Source of the DNA: Spiribacter halobius
Lineage (GTDB): Bacteria > Pseudomonadota > Gammaproteobacteria > Nitrococcales > Nitrococcaceae
Assembly (NCBI RefSeq): GCF_020883455.1
Contig: NZ_CP086615.1
Location: forward strand, 3,038,001-3,102,000
Reading direction: 5' to 3'
Length of the DNA stretch: 64,000 nucleotides
Shown: positions 6,809 through 19,712 of the stretch, in pieces
How positions within the stretch are numbered: position 1 is the stretch's first letter
Layout: the number at the start of each line of letters is the position of its first letter
Notes under the pieces: model-generated
The model's database searches: none
What the model was told of the DNA's origin: nothing
The model's input: the letters and a program-made list of their open reading frames with translations, nothing else
Made by a program: the position numbers and the translations under genes

Positions 6809-7903
6809 TCAGGTGTCGTCGACCACGATTTTCGGGAAGCGGCTGGCGCCGGCGGAGGCCTGGCGGGAGAGCATCGCCGCCGTGCGCAGCGCCGCGTCGC
6901 GGTAGAGCTCGGCGACGCGGCCCTCCGGCTCGGCCACCACGGTGGGCCGGCCGGCATCCACCTGCTCGCGGATGTGGATATCCAGCGGCAGCGAGCCCAG
7001 CAGCTCCACCCCCTCCTGGTCGGCCAGGCGCTGGCCGCCGCCGGCGCCGAAGACGTGCTCCTCGTGGCCGCAATTGGAGCAGATGTGGAGGCTCATGTTC
7101 TCGAGCACGCCGAGCACGGGCACCTTCACCTTCTCGAACATCTTGATGCCCTTGCGCGCATCCAGGGTGGCGATGTCCTGGGGGGTGGTCACCACCACGG
7201 CGCCGGCGACGGGCACGCGCTGGGAGAGGGTGAGCTGGATGTCGCCGGTACCGGGCGGCAGATCGATAATCAGGTAATCGAGCTGCTCCCAGCGCGTCTC
7301 GTTCAGCAGCTGGGTCAGGGCCTGGGTGACCATCGGGCCGCGCCAGACCATGGGCGTCTCCTCCTCGATGAGGAAGCCGATGGACATGACCTGCACCCCG
7401 TAATTTTCCAGCGGGGTAATGGTCTTGCCGTCGGGGCTGTCCGGCTTGCGGCCGGCGACGCCCATCATCCGTGGCTGGCTCGGCCCGTAGATGTCGGCGT
7501 CGAGCAGGCCTACCCGGGCGCCCTCCCCGGCCAGCGCCAGCGCGAGATTGGCGGCACTGGTGGACTTGCCCACCCCGCCCTTGGCCGAGGCCACGGCGAT
7601 GATGTTGCGGACGTTCTCCAGCGGCTTCAGGGTCGCCTGGACCTGGCGCGCGACCACCTGCCAGTCCACCGACACCGCCACCGCCCGCGCGCCGGTGGCA
7701 GCCCGGATATGCTGCTCGAGCTCGCGCTGCAAGGTCGGGCGGTAGCGGTCCACCGGGAAGCCGAGCTGCAGGTCGACGGCCACCTGATCGCCGTCGATGC
7801 GCACGTCCTTCACCGCCTCGGCGCTCATCAGGTCCATGCGCAGGTGCGGTTCGGTCCAGCCGCCGATGGCCGCCTCCACCGCGTCTCGCGTCAATTCGCT
7901 CAT
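6809..7903 (-). CDS. apbC: Fe-S cluster carrier ATPase ApbC/Mrp
   Basis: A cytosolic P-loop NTPase that carries and transfers [4Fe-4S] clusters. The 364 residues comprise an N-terminal MIP18/DUF59 domain (about 1-85), a deviant Walker A SAKGGVGKST at 106-115, LLDADIYGPSQP, LIIDLPPGTGD and the cluster-binding Cys275-x2-Cys278. The start at 7903 gives the expected MSEL N-terminus. It lies upstream of dcd. In Pseudomonas the pair diverges from metG, but here metG is 22 kb away. Confidence 0.96.
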   Translation of the reverse strand: MSELTRDAVEAAIGGWTEPHLRMDLMSAEAVKDVRIDGDQVAVDLQLGFPVDRYRPTLQRELEQHIRAATGARAVAVSVDWQVVARQVQATLKPLENVRNIIAVASAKGGVGKSTSAANLALALAGEGARVGLLDADIYGPSQPRMMGVAGRKPDSPDGKTITPLENYGVQVMSIGFLIEEETPMVWRGPMVTQALTQLLNETRWEQLDYLIIDLPPGTGDIQLTLSQRVPVAGAVVVTTPQDIATLDARKGIKMFEKVKVPVLGVLENMSLHICSNCGHEEHVFGAGGGQRLADQEGVELLGSLPLDIHIREQVDAGRPTVVAEPEGRVAELYRDAALRTAAMLSRQASAGASRFPKIVVDDT

Positions 7904-8062
7904 CTCGGCCCCTTGGCGGGTTGCCCTAGGATGGCCGGAGTCTACCGGCCCGGCGAGCAGCATAAAACACGCCAACCGCGGGGTTGCTCGCTGCCGCTCA
8001 CGCATGGACGGCGAACGCGCCGCGCCCCAGAATCCACCAGGCAACGGCTGAGCGGAGGCCCC

Positions 8063-8716
8063 ATGAGCACGCCTGTCCTCGTCATCGGCAACTTCAACTA
8101 CTCGTCCTGGTCCCTGCGCGGCTGGCTTGCCCTGCGCAGGGCCGGCGTCACACCGGACCTCATCCGCCTGCCACTGGACACCCCGGAATTCCACGAGGCC
8201 ATCCGCCGGCACTCGCCCACCGGCAGGGTGCCGGTGCTGCATCACGACGACGTCACCGTCTGGGACTCCCTCGCCATCGCGGAATACGCCAACGAGATCT
8301 TCGCCGAAGGCTCGCTCTGGCCGGCGGAGCGCGTGGCGCGGGCCGAGGCGCGGGCGGCGGTGGCGGAGATGCACAGCGGCTTCGCGGCCCTGCGCGCGGC
8401 GCTGCCGATGAACTGCCGCGCCCGCGGCCGGCGGGTGGAGACTACGCCCCCGGTGGCGGCGGACATCGAGCGCCTGCAGGCCCTCTGGGGCGATGCCCTG
8501 GCGCGCCATGGCGGCCCCGGGCTGTTCGGTCCGCCAGGCATTGCCGAAGCCTTCTTCGCCCCCGTGGCCCTGCGCTTCCGCACCTACGGCATCGCCGTGC
8601 AGGGCGCCGCCGGGGAGTGGCTGGCGCGCCTGCTCGCCGACGAGGACGTGCAGTGGTGGTGCGCCCAGGCGGAGGCCGAGCGCGAGGTGGTCGCCGCCGA
8701 GGAGGTCGGCGCTTGA
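8063..8716 (+). CDS. Glutathione S-transferase family protein
   Basis: A 217-residue GST with an N-terminal thioredoxin-fold domain. The NYSSWSLRGWLALR motif (about residues 11-24) supplies the catalytic Ser/Tyr region, followed by GRVPVLHHDD and the glutathione-binding WDSLAIAEY. An all-helical C-terminal domain follows. GGAGG precedes the ATG at 8063. The stop overlaps the TTG start of the next gene, so it is the first gene of a three-gene unit with the GNAT-C39 protein and the ATP-grasp ligase. The substrate is unknown. Confidence 0.88.
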   Translation: MSTPVLVIGNFNYSSWSLRGWLALRRAGVTPDLIRLPLDTPEFHEAIRRHSPTGRVPVLHHDDVTVWDSLAIAEYANEIFAEGSLWPAERVARAEARAAVAEMHSGFAALRAALPMNCRARGRRVETTPPVAADIERLQALWGDALARHGGPGLFGPPGIAEAFFAPVALRFRTYGIAVQGAAGEWLARLLADEDVQWWCAQAEAEREVVAAEEVGA

Positions 8717-9894
8717 GCCTCGCCGAGCCAGCCGGTGCCACCGCCATCCGCCCCGCTGCCACCTCCGATCTGGATGCGCTGGTCGCCCTGGAGAAGGAGG
8801 CGTTCAGTGGCGACCGGCTCTCCCGGCGCAGCTTCCGCCACCTGCTGCGCCGCGGCCATGCGCGGATTCTGGTGGCCGAGACCGCGCTGCGGGCAGGGCC
8901 CGACGGCGAGGCGCCCGCGCTCGGCGGCTACGTGCTGCTGCTCTACCGCCGCGGCACCTCGCTGGCGCGCCTTTATTCCATCGCCGTCGCCCGCAGTGCC
9001 CGTGGCCAGGGCGTGGCGGCGAAGCTCGTGGCCGCCGCCGAGGACGCCGCGGCGGGCGAGGACTGCGCCGCCGTGCGCCTCGAGATCCGGCGGGACAACA
9101 CGGCCTCCCAGGCGCTCTTCCGCCGCCTCGGCTACCGCGTCTTCGGCACCTACGAGGCCTACTACGAGGACGCCGAGGACGCCCTGCGCTTCGAGAAGCG
9201 TCTGGCCCCGGAGCCGCCGCCGAGCCTCGCCCGGGTGCCCTACTACCGGCAGACCCTGGATTTCACCTGCGGGCCTGCCGCGCTGATCATGGCCATGCGC
9301 GCCCTGGATCCCGCGCTCACGCCGGACCGGCGGCTGGAGCTGCGGCTCTGGCGCGAGTCCACCACGATATTCATGACCGCCGGCCACGGCGGCTGCGGGC
9401 CGGAGGGGCTGGCGCTCGCCGCCCACCGCCGGGGCTTCGCGGTGAGCGTGCACGTCAACGGCCCCGGGGCGTTCTTCACCGACTCGGTGCGCAGCCCGGA
9501 GAAGAAGCAGGTCATGACCCTGGTGCACGAGGATTTTCTGGCCGAGCTCGCCGAGGCGGCCGTGCCCGTACGCCACGAGACCCTCAATGCCGCCGCCCTG
9601 GAGCGCGCCCTGGCGGCGGGGGCCGTGCCCCTGGTGCTGATCAGCCTCTACCGCATCACCCGCGAGCGCACGCCGCACTGGGTGGTGGTGACGGGCCTCG
9701 ACCGGCGCCATGTCTACGTCAACGACCCCTGGGTGGACGAGGGCGGCGGCCGCAGCGCCACGGACACCGTCAACCTGCCTATCCCGCGCCGGGATTTCGA
9801 CCGCATGGCGCGCTACGGCCGCAGCGGCCAGCGCGCGGTGCTGCTGCTCTACCCGCCTGGCGGGCCCAACCCGACCACACAGGAGCCAGAATGA
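8713..9894 (+). CDS. GNAT acetyltransferase fused to a C39-like cysteine peptidase
   Basis: A 393-residue two-domain protein. Residues about 10-165 are a GNAT domain with the acetyl-CoA loop RSARGQGVAAKL at 94-105. Residues about 170-380 are a C39/papain-like domain with Gln180, Cys186 (FTCGPA), His322 (TPHWVVV) and Asp338 (YVNDPW), so the expected catalytic residues are all present. The start is a TTG at 8713, seven bases after GGAGG and overlapping the GST stop. The gene overlaps the ATP-grasp gene by four bases (ATGA). Such fusions recur beside RimK-like ligases and are thought to act in peptide or protein modification, but I know of no experimental function. There is no signal peptide. 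Confidence 0.88.
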   Translation: MSLAEPAGATAIRPAATSDLDALVALEKEAFSGDRLSRRSFRHLLRRGHARILVAETALRAGPDGEAPALGGYVLLLYRRGTSLARLYSIAVARSARGQGVAAKLVAAAEDAAAGEDCAAVRLEIRRDNTASQALFRRLGYRVFGTYEAYYEDAEDALRFEKRLAPEPPPSLARVPYYRQTLDFTCGPAALIMAMRALDPALTPDRRLELRLWRESTTIFMTAGHGGCGPEGLALAAHRRGFAVSVHVNGPGAFFTDSVRSPEKKQVMTLVHEDFLAELAEAAVPVRHETLNAAALERALAAGAVPLVLISLYRITRERTPHWVVVTGLDRRHVYVNDPWVDEGGGRSATDTVNLPIPRRDFDRMARYGRSGQRAVLLLYPPGGPNPTTQEPE

Positions 9895-11381
9895 CCCGCA
9901 CGCTGATCGTCGTCGACGACCTGCGCCACTGGAAGCCCTACAGCGCGAGCGAGGGGGTGATCAGCGCCGACGACTACCTCTTCGGCGAGCCGGGACGGGC
10001 CGGCGCGGAGACGCGGGTCATCAATCTCTGCCAGAGCTACCGCTATCTCTCCACCGGTTACTACGTCTCTTTGCTGGCCGAGGCGCGCAAGCAGCGGGTG
10101 CTGCCCACCGTGCGCACCATCAACGACCTTTCGCGCAAGGCCATCTACGGGCTCGAGACCGAGGACCTGGACGAGCTGCTGCAGCGCCCGCTGGCCCGCT
10201 CCGGCACGGCGCCGGGGGACCGGCTGACCCTGGACATCTTCTTCGGCACCACGCCGGACCCGCGCTTCGGCGAGCTCGCCCGGCAGATCTTCGATGCCTT
10301 CAGCGCCCCGCTGCTGCAGGTGGAGCTCCGCCACCAGGGGCGCTGGCGCATCGCGAGCCTCCGTACCCTGGCGCTGCCGCGCCTCACGGTCCACCAGCAG
10401 GGCGCCTTCGCCGAGGCCCTGGATCGCTTCAGCGGCGACGTCTGGCGGCGGCCCCGGGCGCGCCGGCGCTACCGCTACGACCTCGCCATCCTGCACAACC
10501 CGCAGGAGCAGCTGCCGCCGTCAAACGCCAGGGCACTGCGCAACTTCCAGCGCGTCGGCCGGCAGCTCGGGATCGCGGTGGATCTCCTCACGCCGAAGGA
10601 GTTCGGCCGCCTCGCGGAGTACGACGCGCTCTTCATCCGCGAGACCACCGCCATCTCCGACCATACCTACCGCTTCGCGAAGAAGGCGGAGGCCGAGGGC
10701 ATGGTGGTGATGGACGACCCGGACTCCATCCTGCGCTGCACGAACAAGGTCTACCTCGCCGATCTGCTCGCCACCCACCGAGTGCCCACGCCCGCGACGC
10801 GCATCCTGCACAAGGGCCGGCCGGCGGACCTCGCCGCGGCGGGCGAGACCCTCGGCTTCCCCATGGTGCTGAAGATACCCGACGGCTCCTTCTCCCGCGG
10901 TGTGGTCAAGGTGCCGGAGCCGGCGGAACTGCCGGAGGCGGCGGCGCGGCTGTTCGAGCGCTCGGATCTGATCCTCGCCCAGGAATTCCTGGTGAGCGAC
11001 TACGACTGGCGCATCGGCGTGCTCAACGGCCGCCCCTTCTACGCCTGCCAGTATTTCTTCCCCAAGGGCCACTGGCAGATCGTTCAGCACGGCGCGGACG
11101 GCCGAGTCCGCGAGGGCGGTTCCCGCACCATCGCCGCCTCCGACGCCCCGCGCGCCGTGCTCAAGGTCGCCACCCGCGCCGCCGGGCTGATCGGCAACGG
11201 CCTCTACGGCGTGGATGTGAAGCAGAGCGGCGAGCGGGCGGTGGTGATCGAGGTCAACGACAACCCCAACCTGGACGCCGGGGTCGAGGACGGCTACCTC
11301 GGCGACGACCTCTACCGCATGATCCTGGAAGAGTTCATCCGCCGCCTGGAGCGCAAGCGCAGCCTCCTGCCCCAGGCCTGA
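9891..11381 (+). CDS. RimK-like ATP-grasp ligase with RLAN-type N-terminal domain
   Basis: A 496-residue protein. The N-terminal ~200 residues (from MTRTLIVVDDLRHW) look like the RimK-like ATP-grasp N-terminal domain. The C-terminal ~290 residues form an ATP-grasp fold with FIRETTAISDHTYRFAKKAE, the lysine-bearing FPMVLKIPDGSFSRGVVKV and the metal-binding VIEVNDNPNLDAGVEDG. Family members ligate an amino acid, often glutamate, to a carboxylate of a peptide or protein. The acceptor here is unknown. It is translationally coupled to the GNAT-C39 gene, suggesting one pathway. Confidence 0.88.
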   Translation: MTRTLIVVDDLRHWKPYSASEGVISADDYLFGEPGRAGAETRVINLCQSYRYLSTGYYVSLLAEARKQRVLPTVRTINDLSRKAIYGLETEDLDELLQRPLARSGTAPGDRLTLDIFFGTTPDPRFGELARQIFDAFSAPLLQVELRHQGRWRIASLRTLALPRLTVHQQGAFAEALDRFSGDVWRRPRARRRYRYDLAILHNPQEQLPPSNARALRNFQRVGRQLGIAVDLLTPKEFGRLAEYDALFIRETTAISDHTYRFAKKAEAEGMVVMDDPDSILRCTNKVYLADLLATHRVPTPATRILHKGRPADLAAAGETLGFPMVLKIPDGSFSRGVVKVPEPAELPEAAARLFERSDLILAQEFLVSDYDWRIGVLNGRPFYACQYFFPKGHWQIVQHGADGRVREGGSRTIAASDAPRAVLKVATRAAGLIGNGLYGVDVKQSGERAVVIEVNDNPNLDAGVEDGYLGDDLYRMILEEFIRRLERKRSLLPQA

Positions 11382-11423
11382 GCCCCCGAGTCGACGGCGT
11401 GGCGGTCAGCCCTGGCCGCCGCC

Positions 11424-11485
11424 CTAGCCCGCATATCTCGCCGATTCACGGCTGCGGCCGCGAATCGGTGAGATATGCGGGCTAG
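11424..11485. repeat. Palindromic repeat family B, short copy (B1); contains the aspS stop
   Basis: A 62-bp near-perfect palindrome with CTAG at both ends. The arms are CTAGCCCGCATATCTC and its complement, with a small GC loop. It lies between the convergent ATP-grasp gene and aspS. The aspS stop TAG (complement of 11482-11484) is the terminal CTAG of the repeat. It could fold as a two-way terminator. Confidence 0.85.
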
Positions 11486-13260
11486 TCCTTGGCCGTGCGT
11501 CGCACGCGGATGTGCAGCTCGCGCAGAGCGGCCTCGTCCACCTCGGCCGGGGCCTCGGTGAGCAGGCAGGTGCCGGTCTGGGTCTTGGGGAAGGCCATCA
11601 CGTCCCGGATGGAGCTGGCGCCGGTCATCAGCATCACCAGGCGGTCGAGGCCGAAGGCGATGCCGCCGTGGGGCGGGGCGCCGTACTCGAGGGCGTCCAG
11701 CAGAAACCCGAACTTCTCCCGCGCCGCCGTCTCGTCGATGCCGAGCAGACCGAATACGGCGCTCTGCATCTCCGGGCGGTGGATACGGATCGAGCCGCCG
11801 CCGAGCTCGGTGCCGTTCAGCACCATGTCGTAGGCACGCGAGAGCAGCGCCTCGGGGTCCGCCGCCTGCACCGCCTCCACGGAGTCCGCCTGGGGCGCGG
11901 TGAAGGGGTGATGCAGGGCGTACAGACGCCCGTCGGCATCGTCGTACTCGAACATGGGGAAGTCCACCACCCACAGCGGCCGCCAGGCGTCCTCCACCAG
12001 CCCGAGGTCATGCCCCAGGCGCACCCGCAGGGCGGCGAGGGAGTCGTTGACCACCCGCGCCCGATCGGCGCCGAAGAAGACCAGATCCCCCGCCTCGGCG
12101 CCGGTGCGCTCGAGGATGCCGCTGATGGCGGCATCCGGCAGGAACTTGAGAATCGGCGACTGCAGCCCCTCGCGCCCCAGGGCGGGATCGTTGACCTTGA
12201 CGTAGGCCAGGCCCTTGGCGCCGTAGCGGCCGACGAAGTGGGTGTAGTCGTCGATCGCCTTGCGGGTCAGGCTGCCGCCGCCGGGGACGCGCAGCGCGGC
12301 CACACGGCCCTTGGGATCAGCCGCCGGGCCGGCGAAGACCTTGAACTCGACCCCGGTGAGCAGATCGCTCACCTCCGTGAGCTCGAGTGGAATGCGCAGG
12401 TCCGGGCGGTCGATACCGAAGCGATGCACCGCCTCGGCGTAGGTCATGCGCGGGAAGGGATCAGGCAGCTCTACGCCGGCAACCTCGCGGAAGAGGTCGC
12501 GGATCATCGCCTCCATCAGCCCCATGATGTCCGCCTCGTCGAGGAACGCGGTCTCCACGTCGAGCTGGGTGAACTCGGGCTGGCGGTCGGCGCGCAGGTC
12601 CTCGTCGCGGAAGCAGCGCACGATCTGGTAGTAGCGGTCGAGCCCGGACATCATCAGCAGCTGCTTGAACAGCTGCGGCGACTGGGGCAGGGCGTAGAAG
12701 CTCCCGGCGTGGAGGCGGCTCGGCACGAGGAAGTCCCGCGCGCCCTCGGGGGTGGCCCGGGTGAGCATGGGGGTTTCGACGTCCACGAAGCCCCGGCTGT
12801 CGAGGAAGCGGCGCATGGCGCCGGTCACCCGCGCCCGGGTGCGCAGGCGCTGCTGCATTTCCGGGCGGCGCAGGTCGACGTAGCGGTAGCGCAGGCGCAC
12901 GTCCTCGCCGACGTCCGTCTCGTCGAGCTGGAACGGCGGCGTCTTCGCGCGGTTGAGCACCTCGATCTCCCGGCCGAGCACCTCCACCTGGCCGGTGGCG
13001 ATGTTCGGGTTCTCGGTACCTTCGGGGCGCCGGCGCACGCGGCCGACGATCCGCAGGACATACTCGCTGCGCACCCGGTCCGCGGTCGCGAAGGCCGCCT
13101 CGGTGTCGGGGTCGAACACCACCTGCAGCAGACCCTCGCGGTCCCGCAGGTCGATGAAGATGACACCGCCGTGGTCGCGGCGCCGATGCACCCAGCCGCA
13201 GACCTCGACGGTCTCGTCGAGGAGGGACTCGGTGACCTCGCCACAGTAGTGCGTGCGCAT
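11482..13260 (-). CDS. aspS: Aspartyl-tRNA synthetase, non-discriminating (Asp/Asn) type signatures
   Basis: A 592-residue bacterial-type class II synthetase. It has an N-terminal OB-fold anticodon domain (1-105), a catalytic core with [18 protein letters not shown] and GIAFGLDRL, and the bacterial GAD insertion. The anticodon domain reads RRRDHGG at 26-32 and has the glycine-containing RPEGTENPN. Established work on Pseudomonas links His and Gly at these sites to a non-discriminating enzyme that also charges tRNA-Asn, while E. coli has Leu at the first site. The stop codon lies within repeat B1. Upstream on the same strand is the FmdB-type gene. Confidence 0.96.
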
Positions 13261-19529: not shown

Positions 19530-19712
19530 TAGCCCGCATATCTCACCGATTTGCGAAGCGAGGGCGTGGAGATGGCGGGCAGGACAAGGCGCGGGAGAGT
19601 TCGGGCGCGCAGGCGTACTGGACAGTACGTCGAGCACCCGAGCCGAGCGCAACGCAGGACTGTCCGCCAGATCCGCGGCCGCAGTCGCGAATCGGTGAGA
19701 TATGCGGGCTAG
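19530..19712. mobile_element. Full-length family B MITE-like element (B2)
   Basis: A 183-bp element with terminal arms TAGCCCGCATATCTCACCGA and, at 19683-19712, its complement. The interior has further dyads (CTGGACAGTACGTCGAGC region and GGACTGTCCGCCAG). It has no coding capacity. Copy B1 looks like an internally deleted form. The right end overlaps the putative start of the DUF454 gene. Confidence 0.8.

Follow-up and report, generated by a model that had tools for sequence, protein, structure and literature searches.

A putative peptide-capping module built on an RLAN-RimK-type ligase and its GNAT partner in Spiribacter halobius and related bacteria

Three consecutive genes of Spiribacter halobius, encoding a GST-like protein, a GNAT acetyltransferase fused to a cysteine peptidase domain (DUF3335), and an ATP-grasp ligase with an N-terminal RLAN domain, raise the question of which of them act together and what they might make. 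They lie in a stretch of 64,000 nucleotides from contig NZ_CP086615.1 (positions 3,038,001 to 3,102,000 of the forward strand), here called the window, and an initial annotation had described them as a three-gene peptide-modification cassette. The gene coordinates and the overlapping stop and start codons given there were borne out by the window sequence: the GST stop codon (8714-8716) overlaps the TTG start of the fusion gene (8713-8715), and the fusion stop codon (9892-9894) overlaps the ATG of the ligase gene (9891-9893). Shine-Dalgarno-like sequences, recognized by eye, precede all three starts (GGAGG at 8054-8058, AGGAGG at 8700-8705, and AGGAG at 9881-9885), and the presence of AGGAGG at 8700-8705 makes the TTG start at 8713 credible. 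The domain identities assigned to the products (GST, GNAT-peptidase, and RLAN/RimK ATP-grasp) likewise stood, all with scores above the Pfam curated cut-offs.

To see which of the genes belong together, we carried out profile searches for RLAN and DUF3335 in 398 genomes of the phylum, judged from named relatives to be Pseudomonadota, and in 14 control genomes. RLAN was present in 72 of the 398 genomes and in none of the 14 controls, and DUF3335 in 58 of the 398; the two occurred together in 57 genomes, RLAN alone in 15, DUF3335 alone in 1, and neither in 325, giving a Fisher p of about 1e-53 that is not corrected for phylogeny. (The RLAN, DUF3335, DUF2817, and DUF155 counts were taken to refer to the same 398 genomes, as the size and the handles agree.) Gene neighborhoods were examined in two samples. 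The first comprised 62 RLAN loci, drawn from 59 of these 72 genomes; outside this count were the window genome and genomes G128, G075, G154, G122, G158, G094, G259, G235, G109, G113, G252, and G181. The second comprised the best 80 of at least 586 stretches from named organisms encoding a relative of the ligase, each spanning at most 6 kb per side of the ligase gene and, being chosen as best matches, biased toward close relatives. With adjacency counted from profile matches to open frames, a GNAT of the same family adjoined the ligase gene in 57 of the 62 survey loci (39 with the peptidase domain and 18 without), was fused to the ligase in 3, and lay one gene away in 1; in the remaining locus the GNAT was missing from the stretch, and the GNAT-C39 gene of that genome was on another contig. 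Among the 80 named loci the GNAT was adjacent in 60, within 1.7 kb but not adjacent in 13, and absent from 7. In Azospirillum brasilense Sp7 (L253) a GNAT-C39 gene likewise adjoins the ligase gene. The strongest sign that GNAT and ligase share one pathway came from three genomes, all of the same family (G305, G414, and G418), in which GNAT, RLAN, and ATP-grasp domains are encoded together in one reading frame of roughly 660 codons. In these genomes a separate GNAT-peptidase gene adjoins the fused ligase gene on the opposite strand, and the ligase-fused GNAT keeps Tyr at the LYE..GY position, whereas the peptidase-fused GNAT has Phe. As the peptidase is often missing while the GNAT persists, we concluded that the GNAT is the constant partner of the ligase and that the two form the core of the system. 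The proposed cassette thus stood in part: in the co-occurrence survey that the initial annotation had called for, the ligase and the GNAT-peptidase were linked far beyond chance, but the GST did not travel along, and its membership found no support. A search of phage records gave weak ATP-grasp matches only, in 2 records.

The peptidase domain proved dispensable for the module. No DUF3335 gene was present in 19 of the 62 survey stretches, and 15 of the 72 RLAN genomes lacked DUF3335 altogether; in L094 and L129, and in the second copies L097, L099, and L101, the peptidase was absent from the stretch and DUF3335 was found elsewhere in the genome. When the peptidase domain was searched for by tblastn in 64 loci (a stand-alone GNAT in 53, no GNAT in 11), a match was obtained in 3, corresponding to a second complete GNAT-peptidase gene (L144), a partial domain (L162), and a free gene of the C39_2 type (L164). 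On a FastTree tree of 159 ligases (145 labeled rows, a few of them at contig ends, such as L190), at least 16 changes were needed to account for which partner GNATs carry the peptidase; L103 and L167 are one locus that was counted twice in this tree and in the residue counts given below for 159 ligases and 153 GNATs. Within the order to which the window belongs, the fused peptidase was kept in 7 of 11 relatives and gone in 4; the own-order group of 12 in the locus count also includes L164, from a genome of the same class without this GNAT.

The catalytic residues of the core products are conserved, with the exception of one GNAT position in the order of the window (Phe where most have Tyr; see below). 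In the ligase (RLAN, 162.8 bits with a cut-off of 25; RimK, 28.5 bits with a cut-off of 21), K286, K328, D442, and E454 were kept in 159 of 159 sequences and N456 in 158, so that the ATP-grasp lysines and metal residues noted earlier are both present and conserved; in the RLAN domain, N45 was kept in 158 of 159 and G56, Y58, S60, and R66 in all. Whole-chain structure matches covered the ATP-grasp half of the ligase and the GNAT part of the fusion protein. In the ligase model (mean predicted local distance difference test, pLDDT, of 80.7), residues 196-488 superposed on Pseudomonas syringae RimK (7qys_E; VIA-align Z 27.8, root-mean-square deviation 2.2, 273 residues aligned); further RimK entries, LysX, and ArgX followed closely. 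The ligase is thus predicted to share the ATP-grasp fold, and shares the catalytic residues, of RimK, LysX, and ArgX; it differs from them in its extra N-terminal RLAN domain and in scoring below their NCBIfam cut-offs (TIGR00768 rimK_fam, 73.3 against 143.4 bits; NF007764, 27.8 against 331). The GNAT domain (Acetyltransf_1, PF00583, 52.5 bits) is predicted to have an N-alpha-acetyltransferase (NAT) fold: it superposed on archaeal Ard1 (4pv6_I; Z 21.9, root-mean-square deviation 2.2, 150 aligned), with RimI tied and Naa10 also among the superpositions, and its YY.D..DA region aligned with that of Ard1. Glu124 was kept in 153 of 153 GNATs, and the acetyl-CoA loop was mostly kept (Arg97 in 138 and Gly100 in 135). 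Unlike RimI and Ard1, this GNAT is often fused to DUF3335 and linked to the ligase, and the fusion protein scored below the rimI cut-off (TIGR01575, 59.4 against 86.4 bits). The third domain had been called a C39 peptidase with a complete Gln-Cys-His-Asp site. The site is present and conserved, with Gln180, Cys186, and His322 invariant in 102 of 102 DUF3335 domains and Asp338 conserved in 93, the other 9 having Glu; the domain is C39-like, but its family is DUF3335 (290.5 bits, cut-off 25) and not Peptidase_C39 proper, the ABC transporter leader peptidase (PF03412, 16.2 bits, cut-off 22). The domain may resemble the eukaryotic actin-maturation protease; a literature search for the two together gave no paper.

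We consider it about an even chance, with a probability of roughly 0.5, that ligase and GNAT constitute a two-gene peptide-capping module of ligase and N-acetyltransferase with an optional peptidase. The ligase would attach an amino acid, at the cost of ATP, to the carboxylate of either a short peptide or an amino acid, and the NAT-like GNAT would acetylate the free alpha-amino group of the substrate or product of the ligase. The DUF3335 domain, tethered to the GNAT where present, may cut the product or its target for trimming, recycling, or regulation, and in some lineages a hydrolase-like DUF2817 protein accompanies it. We infer each of these reactions, their order and substrates, and the division of labor in which the ligase builds, the GNAT caps, and the peptidase trims, from the gene association, domain identities, and conserved catalytic residues that were observed and from the predicted folds of the GNAT and the ligase half. 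A proposal in the available part of PMC4431377, made for different families of ATP-grasp enzymes, has ligation succeeded either by the action of a second ligase or by an associated GNAT that caps the product. A familiar likeness is the pathway to N-acetylglutaminylglutamine, in which a GNAT and an ATP-grasp enzyme make an N-acetylated dipeptide and a peptidase is associated; the product of the module is probably a soluble N-acetylated peptide, made by a similar logic. The module is not that pathway itself: with the N-acetylglutaminylglutamine synthetase profile TIGR03103 (cut-off 569) the fusion protein scored 20.3 bits, the ligase gave no match, and no protein of its own genome was above the cut-off.

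Variant loci pointed in the same chemical direction. In L164 (genome G057, 7888-12831) a free C39_2-type peptidase gene, the RLAN ligase gene, GCS2, and FGase are consecutive, with DUF155 close by; in L251 (41-3232) the RLAN ligase occurs with GCS2 and an N-formylglutamate amidohydrolase. Legionella adelaidensis has, as annotated, a row of a RimK family protein (the RLAN match), a glutamate-cysteine ligase family protein, and an N-formylglutamate amidohydrolase. DUF2817 was found in 23 of 164 scanned loci and lay between ligase and GNAT in five of them (L200, L205, L213, L245, and L247, from Methylobacter, Methylophaga, Methylomicrobium, and two metagenome-assembled genomes); full-length matches occurred in 25 of the 72 RLAN genomes versus 25 of the 326 others, the set being the 50 genomes with full-length matches out of 85 at E 0.001. 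DUF2817, DUF155, GCS2, FGase, and the sigma-54 regulator mentioned below were each profile-scanned in one representative. Together the GCS2, FGase, and C39_2 variants and DUF2817 point to small amino-acid compounds whose amide bonds are made and broken.

Several observations weigh against a capping module of this kind. DUF3335 occurred without a GNAT partner or RLAN neighbor in L151, L152 (two genes), and L153, and one of the 14 controls, Methanosarcina acetivorans, has DUF3335, RLAN not being found there. Four of the 7 named loci without the GNAT sit less than 1 kb from a contig end; L230 and L243 lacked it despite more than 5.7 kb on both sides, and a Pseudomonas aeruginosa plasmid ligase locus lacked it as well. 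(This plasmid copy, at 11911-13500 of L250, lies between SDR and aminotransferase genes with no adjacent GNAT.) Position 136 of the GNAT, at which Tyr is presumably the usual general acid, was Tyr in 133 of 153 sequences, Phe in 19, and Val in 1, and Phe is the residue in the window and in every one of its 11 own-order relatives, which makes acetyl transfer less certain in this order. The literature searched yielded no product or phenotype of the pair. Finally, the usual substrates of NAT-like GNATs are the N-termini of proteins or peptides, and this would fit a protein target equally well.

Such a target is the basis of an alternative that we regard as rather unlikely, in which the RimK-like ligase would extend the C-terminus or a side chain of a protein, the RimI-like GNAT would acetylate an N-terminus, and the C39 domain would erase the modification. 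Both enzymes do resemble modifiers of ribosomal proteins, with RimI, Ard1, and RimK as the nearest folds; however, the rimI and rimK_fam scores given above are under their curated cut-offs, and in 80 loci inspected no recurrent candidate for a target gene stood beside the pair, the neighbors varying by lineage. A much less probable alternative is a graspetide-like pathway to a ribosomally synthesized and post-translationally modified peptide, in which the ligase would cross-link a ribosomal precursor, the C39 domain would cut it, and the GNAT would cap it. ATP-grasp loci of this class often carry a C39-type peptidase and an ABC transporter, and GNAT is not mentioned in the available part of that source (PMC8939145), but the fusion partner of the peptidase domain here is a GNAT and not an ABC transporter. 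Moreover, no precursor-like family was seen by eye among open reading frames of 18-95 amino acids from 44 loci, in the five largest clusters of each of three groups; the clusters were shadows of neighboring genes or unrelated genes.

The GST could be set aside as a functional member of the module. Its match to Pfam was confined to the N-terminal half (GST_N_2, 48.2 bits; GST_C_2, 14.7 bits against a cut-off of 24.9). Homologs of the window GST (E 1e-8 or better) were present in 7 of 11 relatives with a full ligase, in no case on the contig that carries the ligase gene; we consider the GST a mere neighbor, which is probably co-transcribed and joined the transcript in this genome. Besides the window, the scan of 164 loci found a nearby GST in L123 only and in 0 of 11 own-order RLAN loci; a separate search of 80 of the 164 found one in L123 and one in L159, an own-order locus, four genes downstream. 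A three-gene thiol pathway, in which the GST would act on a thiol-containing product, has in its favor the overlap and probable co-transcription of GST, fusion, and ligase genes in this genome, but the lack of linkage in relatives, including the own-order loci, leaves it very improbable.

Other genes near the pair were noted without being assigned to the module. DUF155 occurred with RLAN in 21 of 38 DUF155 genomes, but 12 of the 21 belong to one family (f48), and membership is not claimed; in L166 (7508-10806) GNAT-DUF3335, DUF2817, and DUF155-like genes are consecutive, apart from the ligase gene of the same genome (G064). Fap amyloid genes and a sigma-54 regulator gene stand beside the pair in L098, L100, and L108, from two genomes of family f15 and one genome of the order of the window. 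As they were found in 3 of the 164 scanned loci, we treat the Fap genes as neighbors; the 80 named loci, with at most 6 kb per side, would miss fap genes farther away. In the available part of PMC9207406, brfA, a sigma-54 regulator gene, is placed just downstream of fapA-F. By eye, L,D-transpeptidase-like and YcbK-like genes were seen downstream of the ligase gene in 6 relatives (L154-L158 and L160), and a KefB/C-like potassium efflux gene near it in 9 loci (L091, L092, L104, L107, L112, L197, L204, L206, and L223). The labels L,D-transpeptidase, KefB/C, sigma factor, and Fap come from reading of the sequences and recall. Table 1 gives the features of the window. The palindrome downstream of the ligase gene, next to an aspS gene named by reading its sequence, also occurs near 19689 and 55238. 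With 1 mismatch allowed, a 17-base segment of the palindrome arm has 65 matches in the genome; these frequently face each other in pairs some 153 bases apart, an arrangement like that of a small mobile element.

Table 1. Features of the three-gene region, in window coordinates
Feature	Position	Strand	Basis
GST-like protein, 217 amino acids	8063..8716	+	Pfam PF13409 (GST_N_2), 48.2 bits
GNAT-DUF3335 fusion protein, 393 amino acids, TTG start	8713..9894	+	PF00583 and PF11814; AlphaFold mean pLDDT 91.1
GNAT domain, N-alpha-acetyltransferase-like, residues ~11-165	8743..9207	+	predicted fold match to archaeal Ard1 4pv6_I; Glu124 kept
DUF3335 C39-like cysteine peptidase domain, residues 175-379	9235..9849	+	PF11814, 290.5 bits; conserved catalytic residues
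RLAN-RimK-type ATP-grasp ligase, 496 amino acids	9891..11381	+	PF14401, 162.8 bits; PF08443, 28.5 bits; predicted RimK fold match
RLAN domain, ligase residues 27-176	9969..10418	+	PF14401; conserved residues
Palindrome between ligase and convergent aspS, outside module	11424..11485		29-nucleotide arms, 93% complementary

The association of these domains is not new, and to call it an undescribed system, as the initial annotation did, was too strong. DUF3335 is often fused to GNAT domains according to the available part of PMC10318531, in which Iyer et al. (2009) on amidoligases is cited; the annotation had itself mentioned a comparative-genomics link of such ligases to GNAT and papain-like domains, and the DUF3335-GNAT fusion and its tie to amidoligases are already published. 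The neighborhoods of Iyer et al. (2009), compared here through PMC10318531 only, thus hold the same DUF3335-GNAT fusion in an amidoligase context; in contrast, in our loci the GNAT is constant and the peptidase optional, and the present survey brought out this dispensability, a natural fusion of GNAT and ligase, and the C39_2/GCS2/FGase variant. In the available portions of PMC8939145, PMC2922099, PMC9207406, and PMC3792158 the pair is not treated. We recognized no experimental study of it in the literature searched, where the search for 'RLAN' was dominated by an unrelated word starting with 'rlan'. The Pfam text for RLAN presumably also mentions a GNAT-peptidase neighbor.

Because the association was predicted earlier, the pair is ordinary in kind; yet it is widespread, with RLAN in 72 of the 398 phylum genomes and relatives of the ligase in at least 586 stretches from named species, of which the best 80 were examined. 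As a tentative extension, somewhat less probable than an even chance, the pair may make an undescribed N-acetylated peptide metabolite or protein tag in about one-fifth of the species of the phylum, with the GNAT-tethered peptidase as its eraser and the GNAT-RLAN-ligase fusion as a single-chain synthase. The GCS2/FGase variant hints at the chemistry, and with a GNAT-ligase fusion in some genomes and no peptidase in certain lineages, the question comes down to two enzymes that are open to production and assay.

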